64,000 nt of DNA, from assembly GCF_000443995.1 (NCBI RefSeq), contig NZ_AUMC01000010.1:124001-188000 (forward strand), read 5' to 3'. Source of the stretch: Bacteriovorax sp. BAL6_X (GTDB taxonomy: Bacteria; Bdellovibrionota; Bacteriovoracia; Bacteriovoracales; Bacteriovoracaceae). Positions 1,604-7,912 of the stretch are shown piece after piece (within the stretch, counting starts at the first letter, position 1; each line of letters starts with the position of its first letter). Position numbers and translations under genes: made by a program. Below the pieces are notes generated by a model. That model saw nothing but the letters and a program-made list of their open reading frames with translations, made no database searches and had not been told where the DNA came from.

Positions 1604-1690
1604 TAATAATTACAGCATAACTCTTATTTTCTAATTATCGTTCATAAAAGTGGCATACTTTTGCCGTGCGTAATCATGGGGAAGATAATT

Positions 1691-3796
1691 ATGAAAAGAC
1701 TAATGTCTACATTTCTGTCATCACTTTTATTAATAACATCTGTTAGTGCTGCGGCCGGTGATTTTGAGAATTATGTAAAAACCTTAAAATATAGCAAACT
1801 CGACCCTAAGCTTGGTGGAGATATTAAGGATATTGTGACTCGTAATAAACTTCCGCTTACGCGTCCAGAGTTCTGTCCTTTAAATAATACACGCTCTTAT
1901 GAAGAAGCCTTAAGTAGTTTAAAAGCAATTGTTACAGTTTTTAAAGATGACTGTTTTGATGGTAATGAGTCATTAATAGAACAAGTTCTTAACAGTTCAA
2001 ATGAACTTGAAGAGGAGTTAAATAAGCTAAAAGAAGAGCAGGGGAAAGAAACCGTTGATGTGATTCCTTCTGCTGATCAAGTTGATATAAATGGTATTCC
2101 TCTTATGCAGGTTATGAATGGTGTAAACACACTCTTTTCAAATAATAAGTGTTCAAGTCTTGATCGAACATCTTTCTTAGAACGCTCCGCTGACGTTATT
2201 CAGACTTTTTCTCAATTTGGTTTATATTCTCCATCTGGTGTAACTGTTGCTTATGGTGGTTTAGCTGTCGCCTCAATTCTAAGATTTGTGAATAGTATTT
2301 TTAATGACCGTTTTCAATTTGAAAACGAAGAAGATATCAATACCTTTGTTAAGCTTAATTGTGCCTACTATGATGTTAGAAACCAAGTAAAAGCACTTGA
2401 GGTTTTTGATATTGACACTGACAGACACTATACTGATAAGGAAATTTCTGAGGTGCTAGTGGCCCAAGTGAAGAAAGATCTTGAGTCTCTGAAGAAAGCT
2501 AAAGATAATGTTGAAGTAGAGTTTGAAAAGATTAAAGATGCTGAAGTTGCAAAGGTAGATGCTGATGTAGAGAAGTTAATTTCCGGTCTTTATGAAAAAA
2601 TGAAAACTCCTCTTTCCGATAAGCCTGGAAAGTCTGCTACATTCCAACAAGCTGAAATTCTTGGAGAGCTTGCTTATTTAAAGCCTCTACTAGAAGAGTA
2701 CTTAGATGAATATATCGAAGAATCTCAAGGTGCAGATCGTTTCTTAAATATGCTATTTAAACAGAAACTTAGTAAGCTGGATAATGCAATGGAGCTAATG
2801 GAAATGAGTGTAAAGGATTTCAATCAGAAATTTCTTACAGACATGGCCAGTTCATTTAACCGAGTTTTAAACAATATTAAAGATAAGAGAAAGAAGGCCC
2901 GTGATAATTTTGATGATACTTTTATAATTTCTCTTGGTGAAGAAAGTCTCTCTGTAAAAGAGTATAAAGAGCTGCTTAAGAGTGATGATCTAAAAAAGAG
3001 AGAAAAAGGAATCACTGATGCTTTTAATGCTATTTCAGAAGTAGATAATCGTTTAGCTGCTATTATCGCAAAAAAAGAATATTCTTCGGTAGATTCAAAA
3101 GATGGTGATCTTAGAGAAATTATTAAGTCTCTTGATGTTGTACGTAATCACGTATACGGAAAATATGGACGTGAATTCTTAGATAAGATGAGAAGTCTTT
3201 CAGAAGAGCAAAATAAAAACTTTAATCAAAAGTATAAAAAATTAGAGAAAAATTACGAAATCACTAAGTCGGGTGACTCAGCTGATCTTGGCGAAGATGC
3301 CCAGTTAAATGCTTGTGTTGATGTACAGACAACGAGAGAAATTTGGGTTTATGCTCAAAAGCTATCGGAGTTAGGTTATGACTTTATAGCAACAAATAAT
3401 GATATTTTTGGTGATGCTGATAATGCAGACAGAAAGAGAATCAAGTCACACAATGATTCGGCCATCCTTGCTCGTCGTATTATCACAGCAAGAAATTACC
3501 TAAAGAAGATTGCAATGCAAAGAGAGCTTGGGCGTGAAGATGTTGAAGTAGAAGGTAAGAAATACTCTCTTACTCAAGCAGAGAATGTTGTTCGTACTAT
3601 TGAGTTCTATGGGAAAACCCTAACTCTAGAAGAAGCGCAGGATTACCTAGATAATAAATTCGGACAAAAGGGACTTAGAGGAGATCGACTCGGTCAGATT
3701 ATGATGGAAATCATCAATAATCGTGACAAAACAGTTGGGCTTCAAAAGTTCTATAAAGTCCATAAGTGTTCAAATCTTTCAACAATTTCAAGATAG
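1691..3796 (+). CDS. Secreted coiled-coil protein of unknown function
   Basis: This 701-residue protein has a clear N-terminal signal peptide (MKRLMSTFLSSLLLITSVSA), so it is exported to the periplasm or beyond. The start at ATG 1691 is chosen because GGGGAAG lies just upstream and an in-frame TTG at 1661 would spoil the signal sequence. The rest is largely charged and helical, with long coiled-coil stretches at about residues 100-125, 245-300 and 360-560. A short hydrophobic segment with GVTVAYGGLAVASILRF lies near residue 200. A few cysteines are spread through the chain, including NACVDVQT and the C-terminal VHKCSN. It is followed by a strong terminator and appears monocistronic. I do not recognise a family. 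Confidence 0.75.
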   Translation: MKRLMSTFLSSLLLITSVSAAAGDFENYVKTLKYSKLDPKLGGDIKDIVTRNKLPLTRPEFCPLNNTRSYEEALSSLKAIVTVFKDDCFDGNESLIEQVLNSSNELEEELNKLKEEQGKETVDVIPSADQVDINGIPLMQVMNGVNTLFSNNKCSSLDRTSFLERSADVIQTFSQFGLYSPSGVTVAYGGLAVASILRFVNSIFNDRFQFENEEDINTFVKLNCAYYDVRNQVKALEVFDIDTDRHYTDKEISEVLVAQVKKDLESLKKAKDNVEVEFEKIKDAEVAKVDADVEKLISGLYEKMKTPLSDKPGKSATFQQAEILGELAYLKPLLEEYLDEYIEESQGADRFLNMLFKQKLSKLDNAMELMEMSVKDFNQKFLTDMASSFNRVLNNIKDKRKKARDNFDDTFIISLGEESLSVKEYKELLKSDDLKKREKGITDAFNAISEVDNRLAAIIAKKEYSSVDSKDGDLREIIKSLDVVRNHVYGKYGREFLDKMRSLSEEQNKNFNQKYKKLEKNYEITKSGDSADLGEDAQLNACVDVQTTREIWVYAQKLSELGYDFIATNNDIFGDADNADRKRIKSHNDSAILARRIITARNYLKKIAMQRELGREDVEVEGKKYSLTQAENVVRTIEFYGKTLTLEEAQDYLDNKFGQKGLRGDRLGQIMMEIINNRDKTVGLQKFYKVHKCSNLSTISR

Positions 3797-3877: not shown

Positions 3878-3915
3878 TACGAAATATTATATTAACTTTA
3901 ATAGGGAGAAAATTG

Positions 3916-4317
3916 ATGAAATCAATGATTATTTTTCTAATTGCATTTGTGTCGTTTAATGTTTCAGCTAAAGCAGTATCTAAGAGTCTAACTAGTGAAG
4001 AAACTCAACTGGTAGTTGAGCTTGCTAATAATTATCAAGTTCCTCTTAAAGTAAGTGGGCCTTGTAATAAGGTTGAATTTGATATTATTGATAGTGTTAA
4101 GGGTTTTAACCCTGCTGTATGGTCTCTAAATACTGGCAATATGACTTATCTTTTAGAAGAGAGTGAGGCGACGCCTTTAGTATATCTATTTGATCGTGTA
4201 GAAGTTCCTTCTGTACTAATTAACTCATTTACACAAGTTTCGAGAGCAACGGTTACTGGATCTTCTTGTGGGTTTAATCCTTACAAGTGGACTATCTCAT
4301 TTGATGATTTAGAGTAG
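3916..4317 (+). CDS. Small secreted protein of unknown function
   Basis: The 133-residue product starts with a signal peptide (MKSMIIFLIAFVSFNVSAKA) and is probably periplasmic. ATG 3916 is preceded by AGGGAG at good spacing; the TTG three bases earlier is not needed. The mature part contains two cysteines (GPCNKVEF and GSSCGFNPYKW) that may form a disulphide, and alternating polar/hydrophobic stretches that suggest a small beta-rich fold. The VPLKVSGPC ... SSCGFNPYKW pattern is shared by no family I can name. It has its own likely promoter and sits upstream of the RNA-rich region. Confidence 0.7.
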   Translation: MKSMIIFLIAFVSFNVSAKAVSKSLTSEETQLVVELANNYQVPLKVSGPCNKVEFDIIDSVKGFNPAVWSLNTGNMTYLLEESEATPLVYLFDRVEVPSVLINSFTQVSRATVTGSSCGFNPYKWTISFDDLE

Positions 4318-4640: not shown

Positions 4641-4785
4641 GGTGGCCCGGGCATCTACAGTGCGGCAAAAGCCGAAGGGTTTTGAAGCATTGGAGTTTAC
4701 TATCTCGTGGAGATTTTACAAGCGTTAGCGCCAGTAAAATCGTAGACCTTTATTGTTCGTAAAAATAAATAGTGTAATTTGAGGT
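4641..4785 (-). repeat. tRNA-Leu-linked 145-bp repeat, copy 2
   Basis: The second tandem copy joins directly to the 3' end of the tRNA-Leu gene; the period is exactly 145 bases (4496, 4641, 4786). Its hairpin lies at 4712-4741. On the - strand the order is tRNA, copy 2, copy 1, terminator. A single primary transcript would hold one tRNA and two copies of the spacer RNA. Confidence 0.9.
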
Positions 4786-4870
4786 GGTGGCCCGGGCGAG
4801 ACTTGAACTCGCACAGTATTGCTACCGGCGGATTTTGAATCCGCTGTGTCTACCATTCCACCACCGGGCC
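4785..4870 (-). tRNA. tRNA-Leu (CAA anticodon)
   Basis: The 86-base gene on the - strand has acceptor stem GGCCCGG/CCGGGCC, encoded CCA, a long variable arm as expected for tRNA-Leu, and T arm GCGAG-TTCAAGT-CTCGC. The anticodon stem GCGGA/TCCGC closes the loop TTCAAAA, giving anticodon CAA. The 3' end is repeated twice downstream in the 145-bp units. Confidence 0.95.
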
Positions 4871-5056
4871 ATTGAGAATAGAATAAGTCTATTCATTTCA
4901 GGGAAATCAGTCAATTGTTAAAAGTTATGCACATTTTTTGCAACGCCTTGCATGATTTAAATGAAGTTTATATTACTTTTGTTAACTGAACTTTAGTTTT
5001 CCTTCCCTTGTTTTATGTCGAAAGACTTCTTGAAAAAACTCTACAAAGGAAGAAAT

Positions 5057-6961
5057 ATGAAAGTCGGATTTCTTGTTTTTATTCTGTGTGCTATCTCATT
5101 TTTTGTGGGAAGAGGGACATCCTTTATGGGAAGTGCCCTAAGCGTAAATACCCTCATTTACGATAACCCTATGATGAAGGCAAAGGATAAGAAGTTATCA
5201 AAACTTGATAATGGTGCACTTGTTGATAGTGAGACGTTAAATTATTGGAATTTATCTCAGCAGAGTGAAAAACGTGGATCTTACGATAAATTAACAACCG
5301 TTAATTTAGGACGTGGACTCTATACCATTGGCAGTGACAGTATTGTTAACTCGCATTTTATTATCGGTAAAGATGGAGTAATTGTTTATGATACTGGTGA
5401 TAACGAGCACGATGCAAATATTTTCTATAGCGAGATGAGAAAGGTAACAAGACTTCCTGTTAGGGCCATTATCTATTCGCATGAGCATTATAGTCTAGGA
5501 GCAAAATCCTTCGTTGAGCAAGAAAGACGTCGTGGAAATAGAAATATCAAGATTATTGGACACCCAAATACAAATAAAGTTATGGCCGCTTCAGGTGGTG
5601 TTGAGGCACTTCATCCTGAGGTGGGAGGGGTTCTCATGGCCAGGTCTGTAGAACAATTTAACCTATACTTGCCCGATAAAGGTGACGATGCAAGGTTTAA
5701 GAATACGGTTATTCCTGATAACAATGGCTTCATTCCAGTAAATACACCAGTGAGGAATGGCCAACGTCTTACGATTGCAGGTGTAGGTATGACTTTTTAT
5801 ACAAAAGGTGTTGGGACAGATACTTCTAACCAAGTCCTAGTTCATATACCTTCTAAAAAGGCCGTCCTCAATAACGTCATGTGGGGTTGGTTTCCAAATA
5901 TCTATAGTCTTCGCGGTGGAAAGTATCGAAACCCTGAAGAATGGAAGAGATCTGTTGAATTTATTAAAAAGCTAAATCCTGAAATACTTATGAGTACACA
6001 TTCTACAAGTATAAAGGGTAGTGATAAAGTCGCTCAACGCTTACAAAACTATCAAGACGGGCTTTCTTTTGTTTTAGATCAGACTTTAAAGGGCATATCA
6101 CTGGGCATGGGTCCAGATGAGTTAAGATACTTTGTGACAATTCCAGATTACTTAAAAACAGAACCAACATTGATTGAAAACTATGGGCCACTCTCATCAA
6201 TGCCACCACGTATTTATCATGCAATATTTGGACAATTTAATCGTGATGCAACAACTCTTTATAAACTTCATCCTGATGACGAAGCGAAGAGAATTGTTCT
6301 TTCTATGGGGGGAGAGGCCAGAGTCAAGTCTCTTGCGGATTATGCTTATAGAGATGGTGACTATCAATGGTCTTGTCAGCTTGCGAATTACTTAGTTCGT
6401 GTAAATAAGAGTAGTGATAATAATCAAATTAAAGCAAATTGTTTAAAACAAATTGGATACCGAAGCCTTGCTACTACAGCACGAAGTTGGGCATTAAGCC
6501 AAGCTAGAGCTGCGGAAGGAAAAGTTGCAATTATTAAGAATGCTCCTGCAACATTCAATCAAGTAAGAAGTAATGCTAGTTCATTTGTAAATAATTATCG
6601 TATTAGAATTAATCCTAGTCGAGCACAAGGGACTGAAAAATTCATTGCTATTAATTTCGGCTATGGTGAAAAATATGGCCTGCATATTAGAAATGCAGTA
6701 GTCGACTTTGTAAGTGATAGAAGAAGGATTGATAAGAGAAAAGATCTTGAAGTTCATATGAATAAAGATACTTTTACAAAGCTGTACAACAATCTTGGCT
6801 CAGTCGAAGACTTTATTGCTTCAGCTGATATTGGAATTGAAAGGGGGACTAAAGAAGAAATTGTAGAAGCCTTTTCTAATTTCGATGTTATATATGATTG
6901 GGAAAACGATCCAGCTTTAAATACAGTAAAAGAAAGAACACTAGCAAGTGAAGAGGAATAA
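5057..6961 (+). CDS. Alkylsulfatase-like metallo-beta-lactamase-fold protein with degenerate metal site
   Basis: The 634-residue protein starts at ATG 5057 (AAAGGAAG just upstream) with a hydrophobic signal or anchor segment (VGFLVFILCAISFFVG). The region at about residues 90-340 has the order and wording of linear alkylsulfatases of the SdsA1/YjcS type: HFIIGKDGVIVYDTG, RAIIYSHEHYSLGA, FPNIYSLRG. The C-terminal third matches the SCP2-like domain layout of that family. Where active enzymes have HxHxDH, this one reads HEHYSL. The two glutamate ligands that normally follow also appear replaced (TSNQVLV and LNNVMWG). The protein may therefore be inactive or use other chemistry. It is followed by its own terminator. 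Fold assignment is good; function is open. Confidence 0.8.
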   Translation: MKVGFLVFILCAISFFVGRGTSFMGSALSVNTLIYDNPMMKAKDKKLSKLDNGALVDSETLNYWNLSQQSEKRGSYDKLTTVNLGRGLYTIGSDSIVNSHFIIGKDGVIVYDTGDNEHDANIFYSEMRKVTRLPVRAIIYSHEHYSLGAKSFVEQERRRGNRNIKIIGHPNTNKVMAASGGVEALHPEVGGVLMARSVEQFNLYLPDKGDDARFKNTVIPDNNGFIPVNTPVRNGQRLTIAGVGMTFYTKGVGTDTSNQVLVHIPSKKAVLNNVMWGWFPNIYSLRGGKYRNPEEWKRSVEFIKKLNPEILMSTHSTSIKGSDKVAQRLQNYQDGLSFVLDQTLKGISLGMGPDELRYFVTIPDYLKTEPTLIENYGPLSSMPPRIYHAIFGQFNRDATTLYKLHPDDEAKRIVLSMGGEARVKSLADYAYRDGDYQWSCQLANYLVRVNKSSDNNQIKANCLKQIGYRSLATTARSWALSQARAAEGKVAIIKNAPATFNQVRSNASSFVNNYRIRINPSRAQGTEKFIAINFGYGEKYGLHIRNAVVDFVSDRRRIDKRKDLEVHMNKDTFTKLYNNLGSVEDFIASADIGIERGTKEEIVEAFSNFDVIYDWENDPALNTVKERTLASEEE

Positions 6962-6967
6962 TTATAT

Positions 6968-7912
6968 TTAGCCCTTTCGTATTAATGAAAGGGTTTTTCT
7001 GCTGTCATATTGATATACATTTTCAGTAATAAATTGATTTATTTTTGAATTATCAATAATACATGAGTACATAACAAAATCGATGAAGTAGCTAGGGAAT
7101 GGCCAGATCTTTCGAATCGCTTTTGAAAGAACTTCTAAGGTAAATACTGGAAATGGAAAGTCTCTAGTGCCAGTTATTTTTTTTGCCTCTTGGAGTGAGA
7201 TTGCTTCACTAGGGGCAACGTTGTAAACACCTGTAGGTAGTTTATCGAGAGATTGAAATAAAATATTTGCCATGTCATATTCATGAATGAATTGCATCAT
7301 GGGGTTAAAATCAACAGGCACAGGAGTCATATTAGAGGTTAAGTATCTTGAAATTGTATTATCAATTTGTGGCCCAATAATATTACATGGCCTAAGAACA
7401 ACGGTTTCAATATTTTCTCTGTTTTTCCACATCCAGTTAGTACAAAGAGCATCGACTTCTGTCACATCTCGAAGCTCTGGGTGTTTGATACTAGCTTTTA
7501 AAGGGTAGTCTTCATTAATAAATACTGGATTATCTGCTTGCGCCCCGTAGACATGGAAAGTGCTGAGCATAATAAATTTTTTTATGGAATACTTCTCAGC
7601 AAGTTCTAAAACCTTATTTGTATTAATAAGACTAAAACTTAAGCGTTCTTCGGCACTCCCACCAGGAGGAGATATTCTACCGATCTGATAAATTGTTTCA
7701 AATCTATTTTCACGAAACAGTTTTTCAAAATTTCTGCGAGTGTAGCGCATTCGATGAAAGGTGAAATTTTCAAAATCAACTTCATTCTTCATTGATCTTG
7801 AATCTATTCCAACAATTCTCGCATCAGGAATTCTCTTTGCTAGTAGTCCGCATAAGATATTTGAAAGACCACCCGAGGCTCCGATGATTAGGATTGAACG
7901 TGTACTATTCAT
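6968..7912 (-). CDS. NAD-dependent epimerase/dehydratase family protein
   Basis: This 314-residue protein is of the extended short-chain dehydrogenase type. The nucleotide-binding motif GASGGLSN lies at about residues 11-18, followed by an acidic IVGID strand end that suggests NAD. A STFHVYGA segment stands in the place of the catalytic Ser/Tyr region, but the usual YxxxK is not obvious, so catalysis may differ from classical sugar epimerases. VVLRPCNIIGPQ is the conserved substrate-loop segment. It overlaps the upstream acyltransferase by 8 bases (7905-7912), so the two are translationally coupled. An isoprenoid, lipid or sugar substrate is possible; the sequence does not decide. Confidence 0.82.
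   Translation of the reverse strand: MNSTRSILIIGASGGLSNILCGLLAKRIPDARIVGIDSRSMKNEVDFENFTFHRMRYTRRNFEKLFRENRFETIYQIGRISPPGGSAEERLSFSLINTNKVLELAEKYSIKKFIMLSTFHVYGAQADNPVFINEDYPLKASIKHPELRDVTEVDALCTNWMWKNRENIETVVLRPCNIIGPQIDNTISRYLTSNMTPVPVDFNPMMQFIHEYDMANILFQSLDKLPTGVYNVAPSEAISLQEAKKITGTRDFPFPVFTLEVLSKAIRKIWPFPSYFIDFVMYSCIIDNSKINQFITENVYQYDSRKTLSLIRKG
6972..6998 (+). terminator. Intrinsic terminator after the alkylsulfatase-like gene
   Basis: CCCTTTC/GAAAGGG stem followed by five T. It overlaps the 3' end of the convergent epimerase gene, so the intergenic space is only six bases. Confidence 0.8.

Follow-up and report, generated by a model that had tools for sequence, protein, structure and literature searches.

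Type III alkylsulfatases of SulfAtlas family S3, among them SdsA1 of Pseudomonas aeruginosa (Protein Data Bank entry 2cfu), SdsAP (4nur) and YjcS (4pdx), combine a metallo-beta-lactamase (MBL) fold with a dimerisation domain and an SCP2-like domain. SdsA1 and SdsAP bind two zinc ions, one coordinated by D173, H174, H344, E299 and a water molecule. H169, H171, E280 and E299 coordinate the other ion, which is the more easily lost; E299 alone bridges the two ions, and E280 is a terminal ligand (excerpts of PMC5426288). SdsAP residue numbers have been converted to SdsA1 numbering with a fixed offset of 23. The zinc sites of SdsA1, SdsAP and Pisa1 are conserved, and Pisa1 (2yhe), an active sec-alkylsulfatase, has an aspartate at the equivalent of E280 (PMC5426288). 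The sulfate-binding loop of SdsA1 extends from Ala298 to Arg317 (PMC5066984). A search of the open-licence PMC literature returned no description of a clade of alkylsulfatases that is poor in metal ligands.

Fold and metal ligands of the window protein

The window, a stretch of 64,000 nucleotides, contains on its plus strand an intact frame of 634 codons that runs from an ATG at position 5057 to a stop codon at 6961 and encodes a member of the alkylsulfatase family with an N-terminal hydrophobic export or anchor segment. The ATG at 5057 is preceded by AAAGGAAG; an alternative in-frame ATG is located at 5015, and residue numbers of the window protein refer to the 634-residue form. The MBL-fold domain comprises residues 76–344 (5282–6088, plus strand), as delineated from a PF00753 match to residues 95–145, an AlphaFold2 model and matches to solved structures. 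It is followed on the same strand by the alkylsulfatase dimerisation domain PF14863 (6116–6511) and the C-terminal SCP2-like domain PF14864 (6578–6886). All three Pfam matches exceed their cut-offs, with 27.0, 77.5 and 31.3 bits, respectively, and the PF00753 score, against a curated cut-off of 22.7 bits, places the protein in the metallo-beta-lactamase superfamily.

The best matches among solved structures, by sequence as well as by fold, are the alkylsulfatases named above. The nearest solved relatives are YjcS (1.9e-35 for 4pdx), a Klebsiella YjcS-like protein, SdsAP, SdsA1 (1e-28 for 2cfu) and Pisa1. The AlphaFold2 model, built from 13 sequences, has a mean pLDDT of 67.5 and a pTM of 0.62, with much of the MBL core at a pLDDT near or above 90. 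When the model was compared with known structures by Foldseek, ranks 1–13 were all alkylsulfatases (YjcS, 2.2e-32), and VIA-align superimposed it on 4pdx with a Z score of 23.5 and an rmsd of 6.8 over 357 residues; its domains are not reliably placed relative to one another (whole-chain rmsd 18.9, TM 0.41). The window protein is thus of the alkylsulfatase fold, as an earlier note on this DNA had proposed, and has the three-domain architecture of the family; its identity to SdsA1, SdsAP and YjcS is about 20% over the fold. The same note had called the SCP2-like end well kept. This description is weak, as PF14864 scores 31.3 bits where the cut-off is 27, and the domain is the least conserved one in comparison with the closest orthologue, with which it shares 37 of 116 residues and the MBL domain 159 of 269.

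The metal-binding motif HxHxDH reads HEHYSL in the window protein, which in alignment with SdsA1 corresponds to a two-residue deletion and a tyrosine. The remnant H142-E-H144-Y145 (5480–5491, plus strand) contains the equivalents of H169 and H171, lacks D173, and has Tyr in the place of H174, in agreement with the earlier reading of this motif. Gapless counting back from the shared Pro290 of SdsA1 assigns E280 to Asp255 of the sequence GTDTSNQ (5819–5821, plus strand), an aspartate as in Pisa1. Residues 272–291 (5870–5929, plus strand) correspond to the sulfate-binding loop; within them E299 is replaced by N273, and N307, R312 and R317 are kept as N281, R286 and R291. The equivalent of H344 is also kept, as H315 (5999–6001, plus strand). 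A further histidine of the window protein, H169 in the motif GHP (5561–5563, plus strand), occurs in 13 of the 13 readable proteins with the same altered motif, as well as in 31 of the 63 other family proteins compared. G240 of SdsA1 is replaced by Lys, in a stretch where the alignment is less sure.

The earlier note had suggested that two bridging glutamates were replaced by Asn and Gln. This holds for E299. E280 corresponds to Asp255 and thus to neither residue, and the Gln of TSNQVLV falls at place 284, a non-ligand position; moreover, E299 is the only bridging glutamate in the account of the zinc sites cited above. The statement that the protein had lost its metal ligands applies to D173, H174 and E299, but not to H169, H171, the acid at 280 and H344. 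As judged from the alignment, the zinc site formed by Asp-His-His (Zn1 of SdsA1) is lost and the His-His-acid residues are retained. With the exception of the shared glutamate, the site that appears to be retained is of a form known from an active enzyme, Pisa1; in Pisa1, unlike in the window protein, the remaining ligands of the two sites are all present (PMC5426288).

Members of family S3 have three domains, as does the window protein. The published description of the family requires the motif HxHxDH, in place of which the protein has HEHYSL, and an identity to SdsA1 of 30% or more across some 600 residues, compared with 20% in the Foldseek and 22–23% in the VIA-align fold alignments (requirements as excerpted from PMC5066984). 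In comparison by eye with the consensus of the sulfate loop at 298–317, NNVMWGWFPNIYSLRGGKYR fits all specified places except the first, where it has N and A, G, S, I or T is required; the replacement of E299 by N is itself inside the consensus, which allows E, D, N or A (PMC5066984). By these criteria, to the extent that they are set out in the excerpts of PMC5066984, the window protein is not a member of family S3, though it shares its fold and domains.

Distribution and conservation of HxHY proteins

The alteration of the metal site is not restricted to the window. Matches of any kind to the protein were found in five of 129 genomes of the window's order and in 11 of 368 of its phylum, and the altered motif occurs in one of these 368 genomes; the remaining family matches, where read, are canonical. 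The same genome encodes a canonical paralogue with all ligands (G000:C3:691924-693351). A change private to one strain was considered; it holds within the phylum and is rejected overall by 13 further proteins with the same substitutions outside the window. One of them is encoded on the Vibrio fortis plasmid pLMG21557 (WP_261905484.1) and annotated as an "alkyl sulfatase dimerization domain-containing protein". The closest, L110, is a 50% identical orthologue on the IMG/VR record 2579778703_000007 with identical letters at every ligand place. Others belong to genomes G594 and G713, both sampled from the same phylum as the genome of locus L015, and nine more to eight further genomes of the class of G713, with two in G907. 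The L015 genome has Desulfuromonadales in its record title and is listed under Thermodesulfobacteriota. Provided that this label is correct, the proteins span at least three phyla: that of the window, Pseudomonadota and that of L015.

The ligand comparison comprises 77 proteins, 14 with the altered motif and 63 others. Of the loci left out, L021 has a broken frame, L023 has the MBL domain only, and L014, with an internal stop, gave no match among long frames. One genome search matched 73 of 297 genomes, from which the best loci only, at most 30, were fetched; a search with a five-row profile gave nine of 379 genomes at an E value of 1e-110 or better. From the virus collection, 42 readable proteins were reduced to 11 at 92% identity, and scans of that collection with A1 and A3 as queries returned no relative. 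A seemingly clear score gap, 520–548 against at most 302 bits, proved to be an effect of a two-sequence profile, as the five-row profile added HxHY members at 401–765 bits.

The 14 proteins, defined by HxHY, an acid near 280 and N near 299, are monophyletic: they form one branch with an SH-aLRT value of 100, or 99 when the ligand columns are removed, in quick trees calculated without bootstrap. The motif HxHY is present in 13 of 13 rows where it is readable; L138 does not cover the region, and the first fragment of L134 (985–1534), which reads HSHY, is outside the tree and the 12-row counts given below. All three Pfam domains were detected in the five clade members scanned. D173 and H174 are absent from every readable clade row and present in 63 of 63 other proteins. 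All seven ligands are kept in 62 of these 63, a count that refers to the proteins fetched and not to the whole family, because each genome search contributed its best loci only; the exception is L015, which lacks H169 only. The nearest branch of the tree (L029, L004, L017 and others), in which no characterised member has been seen, is marked by GETDDQ and GDN motifs and also has a histidine at the place of H169 of the window protein; unlike the HxHY clade, it keeps HxHxDH, E280, D299 and H344 in 29 of 29 proteins. The Zn1 site was lost in a single, ancient event in the ancestry of the clade.

Two of the sequences have peculiarities of their own. The protein of L015 (5770–7581), from a Desulfuromonadales metagenome-assembled genome, reads SLHHPDH for HxHxDH, with Leu at H169, a histidine one position on and the other ligands kept. 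The HxHY gene of G1088 (L143:6949-8783) is frameshifted in its record and has intact, about 60% identical relatives in G713 and G1042.

Conservation within the clade is uneven. The equivalents of H169 and H171 (H142 and H144) are found in 12 of 12 aligned rows, and Y145 in 12 of 12 against none of the 63 other proteins. The place of E280 is Asp in ten of 14 rows; the other four have an SDD variant with the acid one place on. The N273 column contains Asn in all 14 rows; by gapless count it is exactly at 299 in 11, and in the remaining three Asn is one off and Ala is at 299. L026 had seemed to retain E299 within the letters VEN, but the gapless count puts its Glu at 298 and Asn at 299. H344 is kept in 13 of 14 rows and displaced in L026, R312 and R317 are kept in 14 of 14, and N307 in 11 of 14, with Pro in the others. 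The place of D115 is more variable (D in eight, N in three and E in one of 12), and G240 is replaced by Lys, Pro, Ala or Ser across five members compared.

Drift would be expected in a disused pocket. Between the window protein and L110, the pocket loops, which were picked from ligand positions, are identical at 38 of 47 residues, and the remainder of the MBL domain at 121 of 222 (p = 5e-4); pairs of canonical proteins have a comparable excess. Over five members, 14 of 47 pocket residues are invariant against 41 of 222 elsewhere, an excess that is not significant (p = 0.064). The selection for a non-classical function suggested in the earlier note gains support from this conservation in the closest orthologues and from the occurrence of the same change in one clade of 14 proteins across deep divergence.

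Possible activity of the altered pocket

Canonical two-zinc hydrolysis of alkyl sulfates by the window protein is unlikely because D173, H174 and E299 are lost. SDS is disfavoured as a substrate because G240, in a less surely aligned stretch, is replaced, and mutations of its counterpart in SdsAP abolished activity on SDS (PMC5426288). Since one metal site and the rest of the pocket appear to be kept, the protein is probably a working but different enzyme and not a dead one. It is proposed, with a probability of about one half, that it is exported and hydrolyses anionic lipid-like substrates with a single metal ion. A dimeric HxHY member of the SdsA1/YjcS family would be exported via its N-terminal hydrophobic segment, the Zn1 site having been removed once by the two-residue deletion and the changes of His174 to Tyr and Glu299 to Asn. 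A single metal ion would be held by H142, H144 and D255 in a pocket lined by Y145, N273 and H315. R286 and R291 of the former sulfate loop may bind an anionic head group, and a hydrophobic tail may be bound by the SCP2-like domain; the compound hydrolysed would be an ester or anionic and lipid-like, but not SDS. By structure titles, SFH-I (3sd9) and mono-zinc VIM-5 (5n55) are precedents for one metal in an MBL fold. Unlike the window protein, they are not alkylsulfatases. B2 enzymes such as SFH-I keep the Asp-Cys-His site, the opposite of the one kept in the HxHY clade.

Several points speak against a single-metal hydrolase. The canonical reaction is described with two zinc ions, and the site kept here is the one that is more easily lost in SdsA1 and SdsAP (excerpts of PMC5426288). 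As aligned, E299, which is common to both sites, is gone, and the prolines at N307 and the displaced H344 of L026 break the pattern of conservation. In addition, neighbouring genes differ between loci.

The main rival is a binding protein without metal or hydrolysis, a possible but doubtful reading. Its pocket and SCP2-like domain would bind an anionic amphiphile, such as an alkyl sulfate, a fatty acid or a sterol sulfate, for sensing, sequestration or transport, and the leftover histidines would be structural or part of the binding. The loss of three residues described as ligands in the canonical enzymes (PMC5426288) and the invariant arginines of the sulfate loop agree with this, and the class-C type-2 flavodiiron proteins are a metal-free precedent in the MBL fold (PMC7785958). 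However, the retention of H142 and H144, of an acid at place 280 or the adjoining one in all 14 rows and of H344 across deep divergence is hard to explain without metal or catalysis, and the conservation of the pocket resembles that in canonical pairs.

It is improbable that the clade has rebuilt a dinuclear site from new ligands (Y145, N273, H169 or D115 of the window protein) and remained an alkylsulfatase. The constancy of Y145, N273 and H169 would fit such a site. By contrast, D115 varies, H169 is found in about half of the canonical proteins too, and Tyr and Asn are uncommon as zinc ligands. The replacement of G240 in five members, at a place where mutation of SdsAP abolished activity, also counts against it (PMC5426288). 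That the protein is an ordinary alkylsulfatase with ligands shifted in the alignment is very improbable: the motif area does require a two-residue gap, but the gap is identical in all clade rows, the places of E299 and E280 come from gapless counting, and the segment SLGAKSFVEQE following HEHY contains no Asp-His. Equally little speaks for a decaying gene heading for loss in this strain, for although it is absent from five congeners, its frame is intact, its base composition is like that of its neighbours, and its substitutions are shared, down to the same letters at all ligand places of a 50% identical orthologue.

For the clade as a whole, it is tentatively suggested that the HxHY proteins form a new group of periplasmic alkylsulfatase-fold hydrolases that use a single metal at a two-His/one-Asp site, with an invariant Tyr and an invariant Asn beside it, and act on anionic lipid-like substrates of a new class. 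The single-metal hydrolase would, if true, be a natural conversion of a two-metal MBL enzyme into a one-metal enzyme, and its single origin could be traced. Such proteins carry database labels derived from the alkylsulfatase domain alone. If the tight zinc site is missing from the clade, this label is misleading, and the clade is a natural test of the extent to which the unusual inverting sulfatase mechanism depends on the dinuclear site. Comparison of HxHY proteins with their two-metal sister group could assign roles to residues.

Surroundings of HxHY genes

The window gene lies between a tRNA-Leu(CAA) gene (4785–4870, minus strand) and a gene for an NAD-dependent epimerase (6968–7912, minus strand); a terminator-like hairpin downstream of it (6970–6995, plus strand) is a consensus match only. 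The gene is absent from five congeners. In G049 and G050 the tRNA-Leu gene directly follows the epimerase gene, with no intervening gene. Other genes lie after the epimerase gene in G051 and G052, and no tRNA gene was found in the stretch taken; G048 was not taken because its contig ends too early. Since the bordering genes adjoin directly in two congeners, the window species probably acquired the gene horizontally beside tRNA-Leu; insertion is the simplest reading of the locus, and loss in the congeners is the alternative. An atypical composition that would mark a transfer was not seen: the GC content of the gene, 0.373, is like that of its surroundings, 0.364. The transfer, if any, is therefore old or from a similar source.

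Elsewhere in the window, positions 27–1296 appear to hold a formaldehyde detoxification pair, made up of the terminal part of a class III alcohol dehydrogenase gene and an S-formylglutathione hydrolase-like gene. Positions 1661–3796 and 3913–4317 encode adjacent proteins of 711 and 134 residues with signal-like N-termini and without Pfam match.

The 14 clade genes occupy 13 loci; the surroundings of L135 were left out of the comparison of neighbours. Genes of the DUF1254/DUF1214 type adjoin in three loci (L114, L143 and L145), with a PAP2-type gene a few genes off; it was assigned by Pfam in L143 and L145, and the one in L114 is 56–69% identical to these two. An alpha/beta-hydrolase gene adjoins in four loci (L110, L016, L142 and L144). 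These hydrolases belong to more than one subfamily, and a single conserved partner for L110 and V. fortis was rejected, as the hydrolases of L110 and L016 have no similarity. Other neighbours encode a short-chain dehydrogenase (SDR), a zinc alcohol dehydrogenase (ADH), an AMP-binding ligase, a molybdopterin oxidoreductase and a DUF1302 protein. No partner gene is constant among the clade loci, and the window locus has no such metabolic neighbour, with two DUF1254 genes elsewhere in its genome. The contexts of the clade point to the metabolism of organic, probably hydrophobic, compounds.

Some loci have features of their own. G907 carries two HxHY genes that have diverged from each other and are separated by a few genes, among them genes for an SDR, a zinc ADH and a radical-SAM protein (L142:5327-12385). 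In the virus-collection record of the closest orthologue, phage tail- or baseplate-like genes were recognised by eye (L112 and L113; G772:C1:50000-86000), and nearer to the HxHY gene the same record holds a series of small genes, comprising GNAT acetyltransferase genes, a GFA-like gene and a toxin-antitoxin-like pair, which by eye recalls integron cassettes.
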